A stretch of DNA of 64,000 nucleotides from Desulfonauticus submarinus (GTDB lineage: Bacteria > Desulfobacterota > Desulfovibrionia > Desulfovibrionales > Desulfonatronovibrionaceae): the NCBI RefSeq assembly GCF_900104045.1, contig NZ_FNIN01000006.1:1-64000 (forward strand). Direction: 5' to 3'. A program made the translations under genes and the position numbers. Shown here one piece after another: positions 50,124-53,627 of this stretch (position 1 is the stretch's first letter; each line of letters opens with the position of its first letter). Under the pieces are notes generated by a model that was not told the DNA's origin, did no database searches, and was given only the letters and a program-made list of their open reading frames with translations.

Positions 50124-50336
50124 ATGTTTGGAATTCCTGGAGATAAACTTGTTTATATTCTACCATTACTTATTTTACCTATTTTACCAAATTTATGGGC
50201 TATTGTTCATATTTTTAAAAGAGATTTTAATACACCTCAAGAAAAAATGATTTGGTTAGGATTAGCTGTTTTTGTGCCAGTTATAGGAGGTTTGGCTTAT
50301 GTTTTTGTGGGGAGAAAAAGGGCAAAACGCTGTTAG
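50124..50336 (+). CDS. PLDc_N-type small membrane protein
   Basis: 70 residues with two membrane helices matching the phospholipase-D-nuclease N-terminal (PLDc_N) module: LPNLWAIVHIFKRDF, then WLGLAVFVPVIGGLAYVFVGRKR. Short proteins consisting of only this module are widespread and of unknown role. A strong GGAGG site precedes it. The CpoB-like gene begins inside its last 38 bases. Confidence 0.78.
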   Translation: MFGIPGDKLVYILPLLILPILPNLWAIVHIFKRDFNTPQEKMIWLGLAVFVPVIGGLAYVFVGRKRAKRC

Positions 50337-51198
50337 ATTTTGGTTATATTTAAGTGTTGTGGGAATAGTATGTTTAGGGGGCTGTGCAAGTAAACAAGAT
50401 GTGGATGCATTGCGTTATGAAGTATATTCTACACAATCTAATTTTGTTCAAGAAAATAAAGCACTTAAGCAAGAGTTAGTTGTTCTTAAAAAGCAAATTA
50501 AAGATCTTAAAGTTCAATTAGAAAAAACTTCTACACCCGTTAGAGCTACTCAGGCTAATTTATGGGCAGAAGTGGAGAGTTTGCGGGTTCAGGTGGCATC
50601 TTTAAGTGGAAAAATAGATACAATTTTACGAGAGCAAGCAGCAACACAAAATGCTACTAATAACGCTACTAAGAGCGTTGATGAGCTTACTCATAAAGTA
50701 GAGGCTCTTGAAGGTAAGTTGACTGCATTAAGTAGTAGATTAGGTATAGATTTGGAAGAAAGCCTAGATAAACCTCAAGATCAGGCAATAAAGAAAAAGC
50801 CTATTATAGAACCAGATAATCCAGAGGATCTTTATAAAAAAGCTTTAGATTCTTTTTATAAAAGAAAATATGATCTTGCTCAGACTTTGTGGGATGAGTT
50901 TGTTCGAGAATATCCTAAGCATAAATTAGTTCCTAACGCATATTTTTGGCAAGGAGAATGTTTTTTTCAAATGGAAGACTATAAACGAGCAATTTTAGCT
51001 TATCAAAAAGTAATAGAAAGATTTCCAAAGTCGAGTAAAATAGCGCCTTCTCTCTTAAAACAGGCTATTTCTTTTGCAAAAATAAAGAAAAATAAGGCGG
51101 CTATTTTATTGTTAAAAGATGTTATAAAAAAATTTCCAAAAACTATAGAAGCTAGGCGAGCCAAGGCATTTTTAAGTAAATTGGAAGGAGCTAAGTAG
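50299..51198 (+). CDS. YbgF/CpoB-like TPR lipoprotein
   Basis: 299 residues. A short N-terminal hydrophobic segment ends in an LGGC lipobox with Cys29, so it is likely lipid-anchored. A coiled-coil region (about 35-150) is followed by TPR-type repeats in the last 130 residues (EDLYKKALDSFYKRKYDLAQ, NAYFWQGECFF, YKRAILAYQKVI), the arrangement of CpoB/YbgF and BamD-like proteins. The start is supported by AGGAGG at 50285-50290 inside the previous gene, eight bases from ATG. The likely role is outer-membrane or Tol-Pal related, but tolB and pal are not in the window. Confidence 0.8.
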   Translation: MFLWGEKGQNAVRFWLYLSVVGIVCLGGCASKQDVDALRYEVYSTQSNFVQENKALKQELVVLKKQIKDLKVQLEKTSTPVRATQANLWAEVESLRVQVASLSGKIDTILREQAATQNATNNATKSVDELTHKVEALEGKLTALSSRLGIDLEESLDKPQDQAIKKKPIIEPDNPEDLYKKALDSFYKRKYDLAQTLWDEFVREYPKHKLVPNAYFWQGECFFQMEDYKRAILAYQKVIERFPKSSKIAPSLLKQAISFAKIKKNKAAILLLKDVIKKFPKTIEARRAKAFLSKLEGAK

Positions 51199-51633
51199 AT
51201 GAATAAAAAATATCCCTCTAAAATTATTGCTTTACATTTTGCCTCAGGTGTATCCCGACAACCTATGATGTGTAATTTAGCAAGAAAATTTGATTTAACG
51301 TTTAATATTTTAAAAGCCAGGATTACTCCAAAAGAAGAAGGACATATGATTATTGAGCTCACGGGTCCAGAAGAGGATTTTCAAAAAGGTCTTTCTTATT
51401 TACAAGAAAATGGTGTTTCTATTCAAGAAGTAGCTCAAAATATCGCTAGAGATGAAAATTTGTGTATGCATTGTGGAATTTGTTTAAGTTTGTGTCTTAC
51501 TGGTGCTTTATCTTTAAATCCAAAAACTAGGCTTATAGAGTTTAATCCTGAAAAGTGCACTGCATGTGGAAGATGCACAAAAATTTGTCCTGTGAAGGCC
51601 ATGCAGGTCCAAATTGACACTAATGGTGAATAA
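51199..51633 (+). CDS. NIL-domain 2[4Fe-4S] ferredoxin
   Basis: 144 residues. An N-terminal NIL domain (about residues 5-75) is followed by two ferredoxin motifs: CMHCGICLSLC and CTACGRCTKICPVKA. This is the architecture of the small protein that works with DUF39/HcyBio proteins in sulfide-dependent homocysteine synthesis in methanogens and Desulfovibrio. The HcyBio protein is 26 kb away at 24.2-25.4 kb. The NIL domain is also found on methionine-related ABC transporters. It directly follows the CpoB-like gene. Confidence 0.88.
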   Translation: MNKKYPSKIIALHFASGVSRQPMMCNLARKFDLTFNILKARITPKEEGHMIIELTGPEEDFQKGLSYLQENGVSIQEVAQNIARDENLCMHCGICLSLCLTGALSLNPKTRLIEFNPEKCTACGRCTKICPVKAMQVQIDTNGE

Positions 51634-51684: not shown

Positions 51685-52209
51685 ATGAACCAAGAGAGTA
51701 GAACTTTTTCTAGGGTTAAAACCCGTTTGAAGATGTATTTTAGGCCAACTTCTAAAGATGCAAGGCCATTGTTTTTAGGGTGCGTTGGTTGTGAGAGTCA
51801 ATCCACAGGATTTGAAGACTTCCATTCTCCCCACCTTCCAAAAGAGTTTTTTGATTTTTTGCTTAACTTAGACAATAAGCTAAATATGATTTTAAATTTT
51901 TTAAGCCAAAAAACTTTAAGTCAGGAATATCCATACCAAGGAGAAGTTATTGAAATAAGTGGGGCAGGTTTTAAATTTATTTCCTCTACTCCTGTGAAGG
52001 TCGGAGATTTTATAGAAGCAGCTGTTGCGTTGTCTTCTGTGCCTCCTGTATTGATAGGCGTGGTAGGTGAAGTTATTCGAGAAGAAATTATTCATGATCA
52101 AAAAATATATGCTTTTAAATATGTTCACATTAGGGAATCTGATAGAGAACAAATCGTACAATTTGTTTTTAAAGAACAAAGGGAGATTCTACGTGAACAA
52201 CGGCTTTAA
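51685..52209 (+). CDS. PilZ-domain protein
   Basis: 174 residues. The PilZ c-di-GMP motif is present near the N-terminus as R-x-x-x-R (RVKTR), with the second element EISGAG, where Asp/Asn is replaced by Glu. Two beta-strand blocks flank a long variable loop with a Cys pair (CVGC). It is the first gene of a tight module with the histidine-kinase-like gene and cheZ, overlapping the next gene by 17 bases. It may link c-di-GMP to motility control. Confidence 0.82.
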   Translation: MNQESRTFSRVKTRLKMYFRPTSKDARPLFLGCVGCESQSTGFEDFHSPHLPKEFFDFLLNLDNKLNMILNFLSQKTLSQEYPYQGEVIEISGAGFKFISSTPVKVGDFIEAAVALSSVPPVLIGVVGEVIREEIIHDQKIYAFKYVHIRESDREQIVQFVFKEQREILREQRL

Positions 52210-52909
52210 TTTAGATTCGCTAGAAGAGATTAACAAGTTGGTTTTTTTATATCTTCAAGCTAGAGGAGGGAAGAGCTTTCCAGGATTTATTCACAATTTG
52301 AATAATTATTTGCATCTTTTAAAGATGCAGCACTCTCTTTTAGAAAAAAAGATTCAAAAAGAAACATTAGAAGATATTCCTGTGTATTTTGAGCGCTTTG
52401 CTCAAGCTTTTAGCGGAGTAGATAGATTAGTTAGCTTAGCTGGTGAAAGAGATTTTTATTTAAGTAAAGAAATAGAACGTTTTAGTATAAATAGTTTTAT
52501 AGAGTGGTTTAAAGATTTTTGGGTTAATGATTTGTTTTTTAAACATCAGATAAAATTAAATATTTGTTTAAATATAGATTCTCCTTTGCAACTTGCACCT
52601 TATATTTTAACTTTTTGTTTGGAAGAAGGGCTGTTTAATATATTAGAAGAATTACAGGACAAAGAAGGAACCTTTGATCTTTCTTTAAATGTGAATAAAG
52701 TAGAACAAGATATAATATTTGAGCTTATCTCTCCTACTGTATTAAAGGTAAAGAATCCCTTTGATCCTTTTGTTTCCACTAAGAAAAAACATTTAGGCTT
52801 AGGTCTTTTTTTAGGGGCTAAACTACTTTCTACTTGTAAAGGGAGTTTAGATTTATTTGCTAAAAATGACTTAACTATTTATCAAATAATTATTCCTATA
52901 AAAAATTAG
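52193..52909 (+). CDS. histidine-kinase-like protein with degenerate ATPase site
   Basis: 238 residues from GTG at 52193, with GGGAG seven bases upstream. The N-terminal helix FIHNLNNYLHLLKMQHSLL resembles the H-box helix of DHp domains. The C-terminal half has the G2 box GLGLFLGAKLL of HATPase_c. The N-box position reads EEGLFNILEE, in which the usual ATP-binding Asn arrangement is altered, and no clear G1 box is visible, so it may be catalytically weak. It lies between PilZ and CheZ genes, overlapping PilZ. Confidence 0.65.
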   Translation: MNNGFNLDSLEEINKLVFLYLQARGGKSFPGFIHNLNNYLHLLKMQHSLLEKKIQKETLEDIPVYFERFAQAFSGVDRLVSLAGERDFYLSKEIERFSINSFIEWFKDFWVNDLFFKHQIKLNICLNIDSPLQLAPYILTFCLEEGLFNILEELQDKEGTFDLSLNVNKVEQDIIFELISPTVLKVKNPFDPFVSTKKKHLGLGLFLGAKLLSTCKGSLDLFAKNDLTIYQIIIPIKN

Positions 52910-52919
52910 GAGGCACTTT

Positions 52920-53627
52920 TTGAAAGACTTAAGTCAAGAAATATTGGATAATTTGAGCTCTAAGTTGGAAGTATCTTTAAAAGATGTTATAGCAGAGGTT
53001 TTAGAAAAGGAGGTTAGCAAAGCCTTAGCTAAGACCTTAATGGAAAGTGAATTTTATCGAAATTTAAGTGAGGAACTTCGTTCAGGTTTAAAAAATATTT
53101 ATAGTAATATTGAGGAAACAAAAAAAACAGGTCTTTCTCAAAAAGAAACAGAATATTTATTAAATGAAACTTCTGATCAACTTGATGCTATTTTACGAAC
53201 CACTGAGCAAGCCACAATGGAAATAATGGGCTTAGTGGAAAAACATTTAGATCAGATGCCTCAAATAGAGGAGATTTGTCAGAGAGTAAAGAAAGGTCAG
53301 GTTTGTCCAGAAGATGGGTTTACTCTTTTGGCTTGGCAAAAAAGCTTAAATCAAGACCTTTTATCTATTATGACTAGTCTTAGTTTTCAGGATTTGACAG
53401 GGCAACGAATTAAAAAGATTATTGATGCCTTACGTCAAATAGAAGAACAAGTGTTTCAACTTTATGTATCTTCTAGTCTTAGTTTAAAAGTAAAAGAAAA
53501 AAATCCTGATAAAGATTTTGAAGAAATAAAACAAGAAGCCCAAGCTAAAATGTCGGAATTAAAAGGACCTCAAGAAAAGGTAAAGCAGGAAGATGTAGAT
53601 GAACTCTTAGCTGAGCTGGGGTTGTAG
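52920..53627 (+). CDS. cheZ: CheY-P phosphatase CheZ
   Basis: 235 residues, long helices throughout. The catalytic motif SFQDLTGQRIKKI gives Asp158 and Gln162, the pair used for CheY-P hydrolysis. The C-terminal DVDELLAELGL matches the CheY-binding tail of CheZ. A TTG start has a strong AGGAGG six bases upstream. It resets the flagellar switch. No other che gene is adjacent, though a chemoreceptor lies 8.7 kb away. Confidence 0.92.
   Translation: MKDLSQEILDNLSSKLEVSLKDVIAEVLEKEVSKALAKTLMESEFYRNLSEELRSGLKNIYSNIEETKKTGLSQKETEYLLNETSDQLDAILRTTEQATMEIMGLVEKHLDQMPQIEEICQRVKKGQVCPEDGFTLLAWQKSLNQDLLSIMTSLSFQDLTGQRIKKIIDALRQIEEQVFQLYVSSSLSLKVKEKNPDKDFEEIKQEAQAKMSELKGPQEKVKQEDVDELLAELGL

Follow-up and report, generated by a model that had tools for sequence, protein, structure and literature searches.

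A PilZ, histidine-kinase-like and CheZ gene set in Desulfonauticus submarinus as a candidate c-di-GMP-linked control of flagellar switching

Spo0B is a small protein made of a DHp hairpin and a non-catalytic ATPase-like domain. In HisKA kinases, the residues one and four positions after the phospho-acceptor histidine (H+1 and H+4) were the subject of a study reportedly authored by Willett and Kirby. The accessible part of that study (PMC3510030) states that the H+1 acid is required for kinase activity and dispensable for phosphatase activity, and that the H+4 threonine or asparagine is required for phosphatase activity and dispensable for kinase activity. ChpT, according to the available portion of its description (PMC3433190), is a dimer with the fold of a kinase, has an atypical ATPase domain and is unable to autophosphorylate. 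Among PilZ proteins, XCC6012 retains only SxxG, and calorimetry gave no reliable c-di-GMP binding in the accessible text of PMC3131395. MapZ and HapZ of Pseudomonas aeruginosa are listed in the available section of a review (PMC12564702) as PilZ adaptors for CheR1 and for the kinase SagS, respectively.

A locus that combines a PilZ protein, a kinase-like protein and CheZ is found in the window, the whole stretch of 64,000 nucleotides of D. submarinus (order Desulfovibrionales) that was analyzed. Five genes are considered:

50299..51198, + strand, YbgF/CpoB-like TPR lipoprotein (NCBIfam TIGR02795, 1.7e-30, above its cut-off)
51199..51633, + strand, NIL-domain 2[4Fe-4S] protein (Pfam NIL 1.7e-18, and Fer4), directly upstream of the PilZ gene
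51685..52209, + strand, PilZ protein of 174 aa, ATG start (Pfam PilZ, E 3.7e-8)
52193..52909, + strand, sensorless histidine-kinase-like protein (HKL) of 238 aa, GTG start at 52193
52920..53627, + strand, CheZ of 235 aa, TTG start (Pfam CheZ, E 1.5e-16)

The original prediction described a compact module made of the last three genes, and their open reading frames are present on the + strand, with the claimed 17-bp overlap between pilZ and hkl and the claimed 10-bp gap between hkl and cheZ. An AGGGAG stretch resembling a ribosome-binding site is found at 52180-52185, ahead of the HKL start, and an AGGAGG stretch ahead of the CheZ start overlies the HKL stop codon. The ybgF-like and NIL genes are separated by 0 bp, and the NIL gene and pilZ by 51 bp. 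Because these gaps are short and the strand is common, a single transcript for ybgF, the NIL-ferredoxin gene, pilZ, hkl and cheZ is plausible. Scans for promoters and terminators gave counts close to the shuffle mean.

The PilZ match lies above the curated Pfam cut-off. The protein has RTFSR (RxxxR) at residues 7-11, a motif kept in 25/29 distinct PilZ sequences of the order with a readable region. At the place of the canonical D/NxSxxG motif it reads EISGAG, so the canonical form is absent; across the order the first position of this motif is Glu in 26 of 30 sequences, Asp in two, Asn in one and Gln in one. The predicted structure (pLDDT 78.7) has a strand at residues 10-21, a long helix at 53-81 and the next strand at 84-92. 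Its best fold match is the tetrameric PilZ protein XCC6012 (3rqa and 3ph1; E 2e-5 for 3rqa), followed by MotI, and the model contains the helical insert after strand 1 that is typical of XCC6012. The two proteins differ in their motifs, SxxG alone in XCC6012 and RxxxR plus ExSxxG in the window PilZ, and the comparison concerns a predicted monomer fold. RxxxR speaks for c-di-GMP binding by the window PilZ, and ExSxxG and the behavior of XCC6012 speak against it; binding is plausible, and the protein is a putative c-di-GMP sensor.

The CheZ match is also above the curated cut-off and is the sole one in the genome, whose chemotaxis and flagellar set further includes two CheA, one CheX and FliM. 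The protein resembles E. coli CheZ (1kmi) in its DxxxQ active site, FQDLTGQ, which aligns with residues 141-147 of the E. coli protein, and in a C-terminal tail, VDELLAELGL, that looks like a CheY-binding sequence. The difference concerns gene order, as cheZ genes of the order usually follow a PilZ gene and, in four genomes, an HKL gene.

Elsewhere in the genome, a chemotaxis cluster on another contig (C3; locus L219, 156000-170000) encodes REC-HD-GYP, CheB, a HEAT-repeat protein, CheR, PilZ, a ParA-like ATPase, CheW, a CheY-like receiver and CheA, without an HKL. Its PilZ protein, of 132 aa, is a second link between PilZ and chemotaxis in this genome. Further downstream, some 14 kb from the module and beyond the end of the window, lies the gene for a stand-alone HD-GYP-type protein of 229 aa (contig C6, 67880-68326; L220, 3775-4464).

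The HKL protein has no Pfam match, and NCBIfam returned kinase matches below cut-off only (the best, TtrS, at 4e-5 over residues 31-222). Among its relatives, 7/23 match HisKA and 6/23 match HATPase_c at E <= 0.01. A model predicted from 23 sequences (pLDDT 94.5) shows the DHp-CA fold of histidine kinases, with a DHp hairpin and a Bergerat CA domain. Its best Foldseek match is HK853 (E 6.2e-12), and the best VIA-align match is ThkA, on which the CA domain was superposed with Z 19.2 and rmsd 1.7 over 142 aligned positions. The 50 best matches listed in each structure comparison were other kinase folds, and neither ChpT nor Spo0B was among these 50. With 238 aa, the protein has no room for a sensor domain.

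The motifs of the window HKL are an HNLNN H-box (His34), FFKH (Lys117, His118), an N-box (Asn149) and a G2 lid, HLGLGL. In the alignment of HKLs of the order, from which one protein with a shortened N-terminus (L093) was left out to give 23 of 24 sequences for the H-box counts, the invariant residues are G26, G31, H34, N35, W105, K117 and H118. The putative phospho-acceptor His34, to which the original prediction did not refer, aligns with the histidine of ZraS and is kept in 23/23. The H-box falls on HEIRN of ZraS, with the acid replaced and Asn38 matching the ZraS asparagine: H+1 is Asn in all 23 sequences, and at H+4, 22 of them have Asn and one has Thr. No HKL of the order has a G1 box (DxGxG) where the alignment would place it: neither the adenine-site Asp nor either of the G1 glycines is there, and the DSGKG region of ZraS aligns to gaps and non-Asp residues. 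G2 is lost in 7/24 HKLs, all from Desulfonatronum-type genomes, and is unrecognizable in one locus (L092). Thus, the degenerate ATP site claimed in the original prediction is real as far as G1 is concerned, with the N-box Asn and the G2 lid remaining. The window HKL resembles the HisKA kinases HK853, ThkA and ZraS in its DHp-CA fold, phospho-acceptor His, N-box and G2 lid, and differs from them in having neither sensor domain nor G1 box and in carrying Asn instead of the post-His acid.

From these residues, HKLs of the order appear to combine two kinase lesions with a retained phosphatase residue. The window protein looks kinase-dead, and it is probably not an autokinase. The idea that it still works as a histidine kinase, by means of an unusual ATP site, draws on Asn149, the lid and G2, all kept, and on several relatives outside the order that keep a DTG-like G1. 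However, the loss of the adenine-site Asp and of both G1 glycines, together with Asn at the position where HisKA kinases require an acid (PMC3510030, accessible part), makes this idea very improbable.

If HKL does not phosphorylate itself, it may still handle phosphate or may simply bind partners. One proposal is that it is a histidine phosphotransferase of the ChpT or Spo0B kind, in which His34 would relay phosphate between receivers (for instance, from REC-HD-GYP to CheY) and the dead ATPase domain would help docking. HKL is built like ChpT, with a small DHp hairpin and a non-catalytic ATPase-like domain (PMC3433190, available portion); the histidine is kept in every aligned HKL of the order while G2 is not, and receiver genes adjoin HKL in the wider family. 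Against it, no upstream hybrid kinase was identified, and the window HKL, unlike ChpT as far as the accessible text describes it, still keeps most of its ATP lid and G2; linkage to PilZ, CheZ and HD-GYP genes is a further difference from ChpT and Spo0B. We consider this relay unlikely.

A second proposal, made in the original prediction, is that the middle protein acts as an adaptor rather than as a kinase. The part of the claim that denies autokinase activity probably stands, given the missing G1 box and H+1 acid. As a pure adaptor without catalysis, HKL would dock PilZ to CheZ, CheY or REC-HD-GYP; the same losses, extended to G2 in Desulfonatronum-type genomes, agree with such a role, the KH pair of the FxKH motif, which is invariant, might serve for binding, and the MapZ-CheR1 and HapZ-SagS pairs are precedents for PilZ adaptors (PMC12564702, available section). 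Those pairs resemble the present case in that a PilZ protein acts on a chemotaxis enzyme or a histidine kinase; the partners are different, as gene linkage here joins PilZ to a seemingly kinase-dead relative and to CheZ. Conservation of His34, Asn35 and Asn/Thr38 in 23/23 sequences would, however, be unneeded in a mere scaffold. Because these residues form a phosphatase- or phosphotransfer-like signature, the pure adaptor is not favored and strikes us as an unlikely explanation. The best reading of the sequence is that HKL, rather than being a bare adaptor, may act on receiver domains as a phosphatase or phosphotransferase controlled by PilZ.

Gene order was compared in 150 genomes of the order, 137 FliM-positive and 13 FliM-negative, using E <= 1e-12 for PilZ and E < 1e-20 for HKL (weaker HKL matches were taken as ordinary kinases). 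CheZ was found in 107 genomes, PilZ in 90 and HKL in 24. PilZ is present in 90/137 FliM-positive genomes, and neither PilZ nor CheZ is found in any of the 13 FliM-negative ones; two of the latter still have FlhA, and FliM-negative genomes are therefore not strictly non-flagellated. PilZ and CheZ co-occur in 76 genomes, and in 68 of them the two genes adjoin on one strand with PilZ upstream, an order that is therefore beyond chance. PilZ and HKL co-occur in 20 genomes and are adjacent in all 20 (gaps of -13 to 346 bp between the matched stretches). The gene after PilZ is CheZ in 64 cases, HKL in 16, HKL followed by CheZ in 4 and neither in 6 (n = 90), so that one of the three arrangements lies directly downstream in 84/90. 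These counts indicate that PilZ-CheZ and PilZ-HKL are conserved pairs and that the triple is a rare combination.

The link of PilZ and CheZ with flagella that was originally predicted is thus borne out by occurrence and adjacency, and the check on neighborhood conservation upholds both pairs. The compact triple is not conserved as a unit: it occurs in only 4/150 genomes of the order and, elsewhere, in five loci that all belong to a single genus; HKL can also be found where CheZ is absent. A special attachment of HKL to the PilZ-CheZ pair was likewise rejected, as 20/24 HKLs follow PilZ and only 4 precede CheZ.

It is as if HKL and CheZ filled the same slot after PilZ, and their alternation suggests related outputs. 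In FliM-positive genomes they are negatively associated: CheZ is present in 12/22 genomes with HKL vs. 95/115 without it (Fisher p 0.009, kinship ignored). They are not mutually exclusive, however, since 8 genomes contain PilZ and CheZ in non-adjacent positions and HKL follows PilZ in all 8. In the family of D. submarinus, CheZ is missing in 7/11 genomes with a strong FliM match, and all 11 flagellated genomes have CheX. CheC matches were excluded because they were weak and, in the genomes examined, fell partly in the same places as CheX. The possibility that HKL replaces a missing phosphatase is weakened by the general presence of CheX: HKL need not replace CheZ.

No association between HKL and FliM was detected over the whole order (22/137 vs. 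2/13). Within the family, HKL is found in 11/11 genomes with strong FliM and in 0/7 without FlhA, counts that ignore kinship and include two FlhA-less genomes with a weak FliM match; FlhA was looked for in 1 of the 11. HKL is present in a second genome of the same genus (G022) and in Desulfonauticus sp. 38_4375, which may be the same one. One genome (G002) has HKL in the absence of FliM, FlhA, CheZ and PilZ matches, and another, 77% complete (G078), has HKL without FliM or FlhA. A PilZ match is lacking in 4/24 HKL-bearing genomes, G006 and G054 among them. In G002 and G006 (loci L091 and L089), HKL comes directly after the YbgF or the NIL gene, and no PilZ match separates them. The NIL-domain ferredoxin (51199-51633 in the window) is a very constant upstream neighbor of PilZ across the order and lies beside it in most loci; a YbgF-like gene is found upstream in many.

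HKL was also sought across the phylum, in a sample of 297 genomes. Matches at E <= 1e-12 were found in 71 genomes at 73 places, of which 60 were retained after removing the window's own and 12 long frames (357-868 aa) taken as ordinary or multi-domain kinases. Both the HN H-box and the KH motif are present in 54/60; the six others have HE (L160, L164, L175), HQ (L170), HH with KY (L173) or a truncated sequence (L165). An HD-GYP gene lies within 1.2 kb upstream on the same strand in 30/54 of the HN and KH loci, and the four HD-GYP neighbors scanned with Pfam all have an N-terminal receiver. PilZ is upstream in 16/54, with one locus (L134) counted by hand because its ORFs overlap. A receiver without HD-GYP is found in 4/54 loci, beside FliS and, in three of them, FliD as well. 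CheZ directly follows HKL in 5/54, all from one genus (g53) and in the order PilZ-HKL-CheZ. At least one of the neighbors sought was found in 37/54 loci and none in 17/54.

In one locus (L216), HKL is followed by an unassigned ORF and by CheR, CheD, CheX, CheD, CheB, a CheY-like receiver, CheA and CheZ; an overlapping stretch (L159) shows an HD-GYP gene directly upstream of that HKL. Two loci (L128 and L148) contain, one after another, REC-HD-GYP, PilZ, HKL, a HEAT-repeat protein, a single-domain receiver and a receiver-TPR protein. The g53 loci (L127, L142, L169, L174 and L180) encode a protein of about 860-880 aa after PilZ-HKL-CheZ, and the copy in L127 has HDOD, GAF, PAS and histidine-kinase domains. 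In the contigs of named genomes, a search with the window HKL alone gave no match, and one with the 23-row HKL alignment gave 27 loci. A search of plasmid records gave no HKL.

On a FastTree tree, the HKLs of the order group as a single clade of 23 members (support 0.957); therefore, the PilZ-HKL-CheZ arrangement of g53 is distant from that of the window's family. Of the 54 wider-family sequences, 33 have Gly at H+4, 10 have Ser, 9 have Thr and 2 have Asn. A DxG near an intact G2 is found in 32/34 by a loose regular expression. A DxG expression that scans the whole C-terminal 110 residues also gave some false matches, for example in L089, L091, L095 and L097, as judged by alignment. As H+4 is Gly or Ser in 43/54 and DxG occurs in 32/34, the phosphatase reading fits the order better than the family as a whole.

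One may ask if PilZ, HKL and CheZ are neighbors without a joint function, with an ordinary stable order and a shared promoter that is incidental. The upstream ybgF and NIL genes, for which no flagellar role is known to us, are likewise widely conserved at this place, and HKL persists in the four genomes that lack a PilZ match. On the other hand, neither PilZ nor CheZ occurs outside FliM-positive genomes, PilZ-HKL recurs at unrelated loci outside the order beside HD-GYP genes, and HKL heads a chemotaxis cluster in L216. Mere neighborhood seems to us quite improbable. Because relatives of the set recur beside flagellar and chemotaxis genes, the three genes probably tune swimming direction.

The best explanation, which we hold tentatively and at somewhat less than even confidence, is that a PilZ-gated HKL devoid of autokinase activity drains receiver phosphate alongside CheZ in flagellar switching. 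Under this explanation, the last three genes of the co-directional string ybgF, NIL-ferredoxin, pilZ, hkl and cheZ would act in flagellar switching. The PilZ protein would sense c-di-GMP, directly or through a partner. HKL would be a dimeric, sensorless kinase core that has lost autokinase activity and has kept the His of the active site and the Asn at H+4. It might dock to a receiver, either CheY or the REC-HD-GYP phosphodiesterase encoded in the chemotaxis cluster, and take phosphate from it, acting as a phosphatase or as a sink, with PilZ gating this action. CheZ would dephosphorylate CheY in parallel, and receiver phosphorylation would thus be subjected to two brakes and one c-di-GMP input. 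Several observations speak against this explanation: CheX occurs as well, one of the genomes with HKL (G002) seems to lack flagella, and HKLs of the wider family keep more of the ATP site.

A bolder proposal concerns the family. In the order, a phylum-wide, kinase-derived family with HN and FxKH motifs may have become a dedicated receiver phosphatase, gated by a PilZ sensor of the tetrameric type and interchangeable with CheZ after pilZ, in other words, a c-di-GMP-controlled second brake on CheY. We regard this proposal as possible but doubtful.

No description of the PilZ-CheZ pair or of HKL was seen in listings of open-access papers with the openings of their abstracts, or in the accessible part of PMC12579266. 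Nor was a link of this kind between c-di-GMP and the phosphorylation of CheY or REC-HD-GYP found in the open-access literature searched. If the explanation is true, c-di-GMP would directly influence, in sulfate reducers, how far CheY or a REC-HD-GYP phosphodiesterase is phosphorylated. If true, it would also offer a natural case for asking whether a dedicated phosphatase can arise from a histidine kinase, a question on which the H+1 and H+4 residues give separable predictions.
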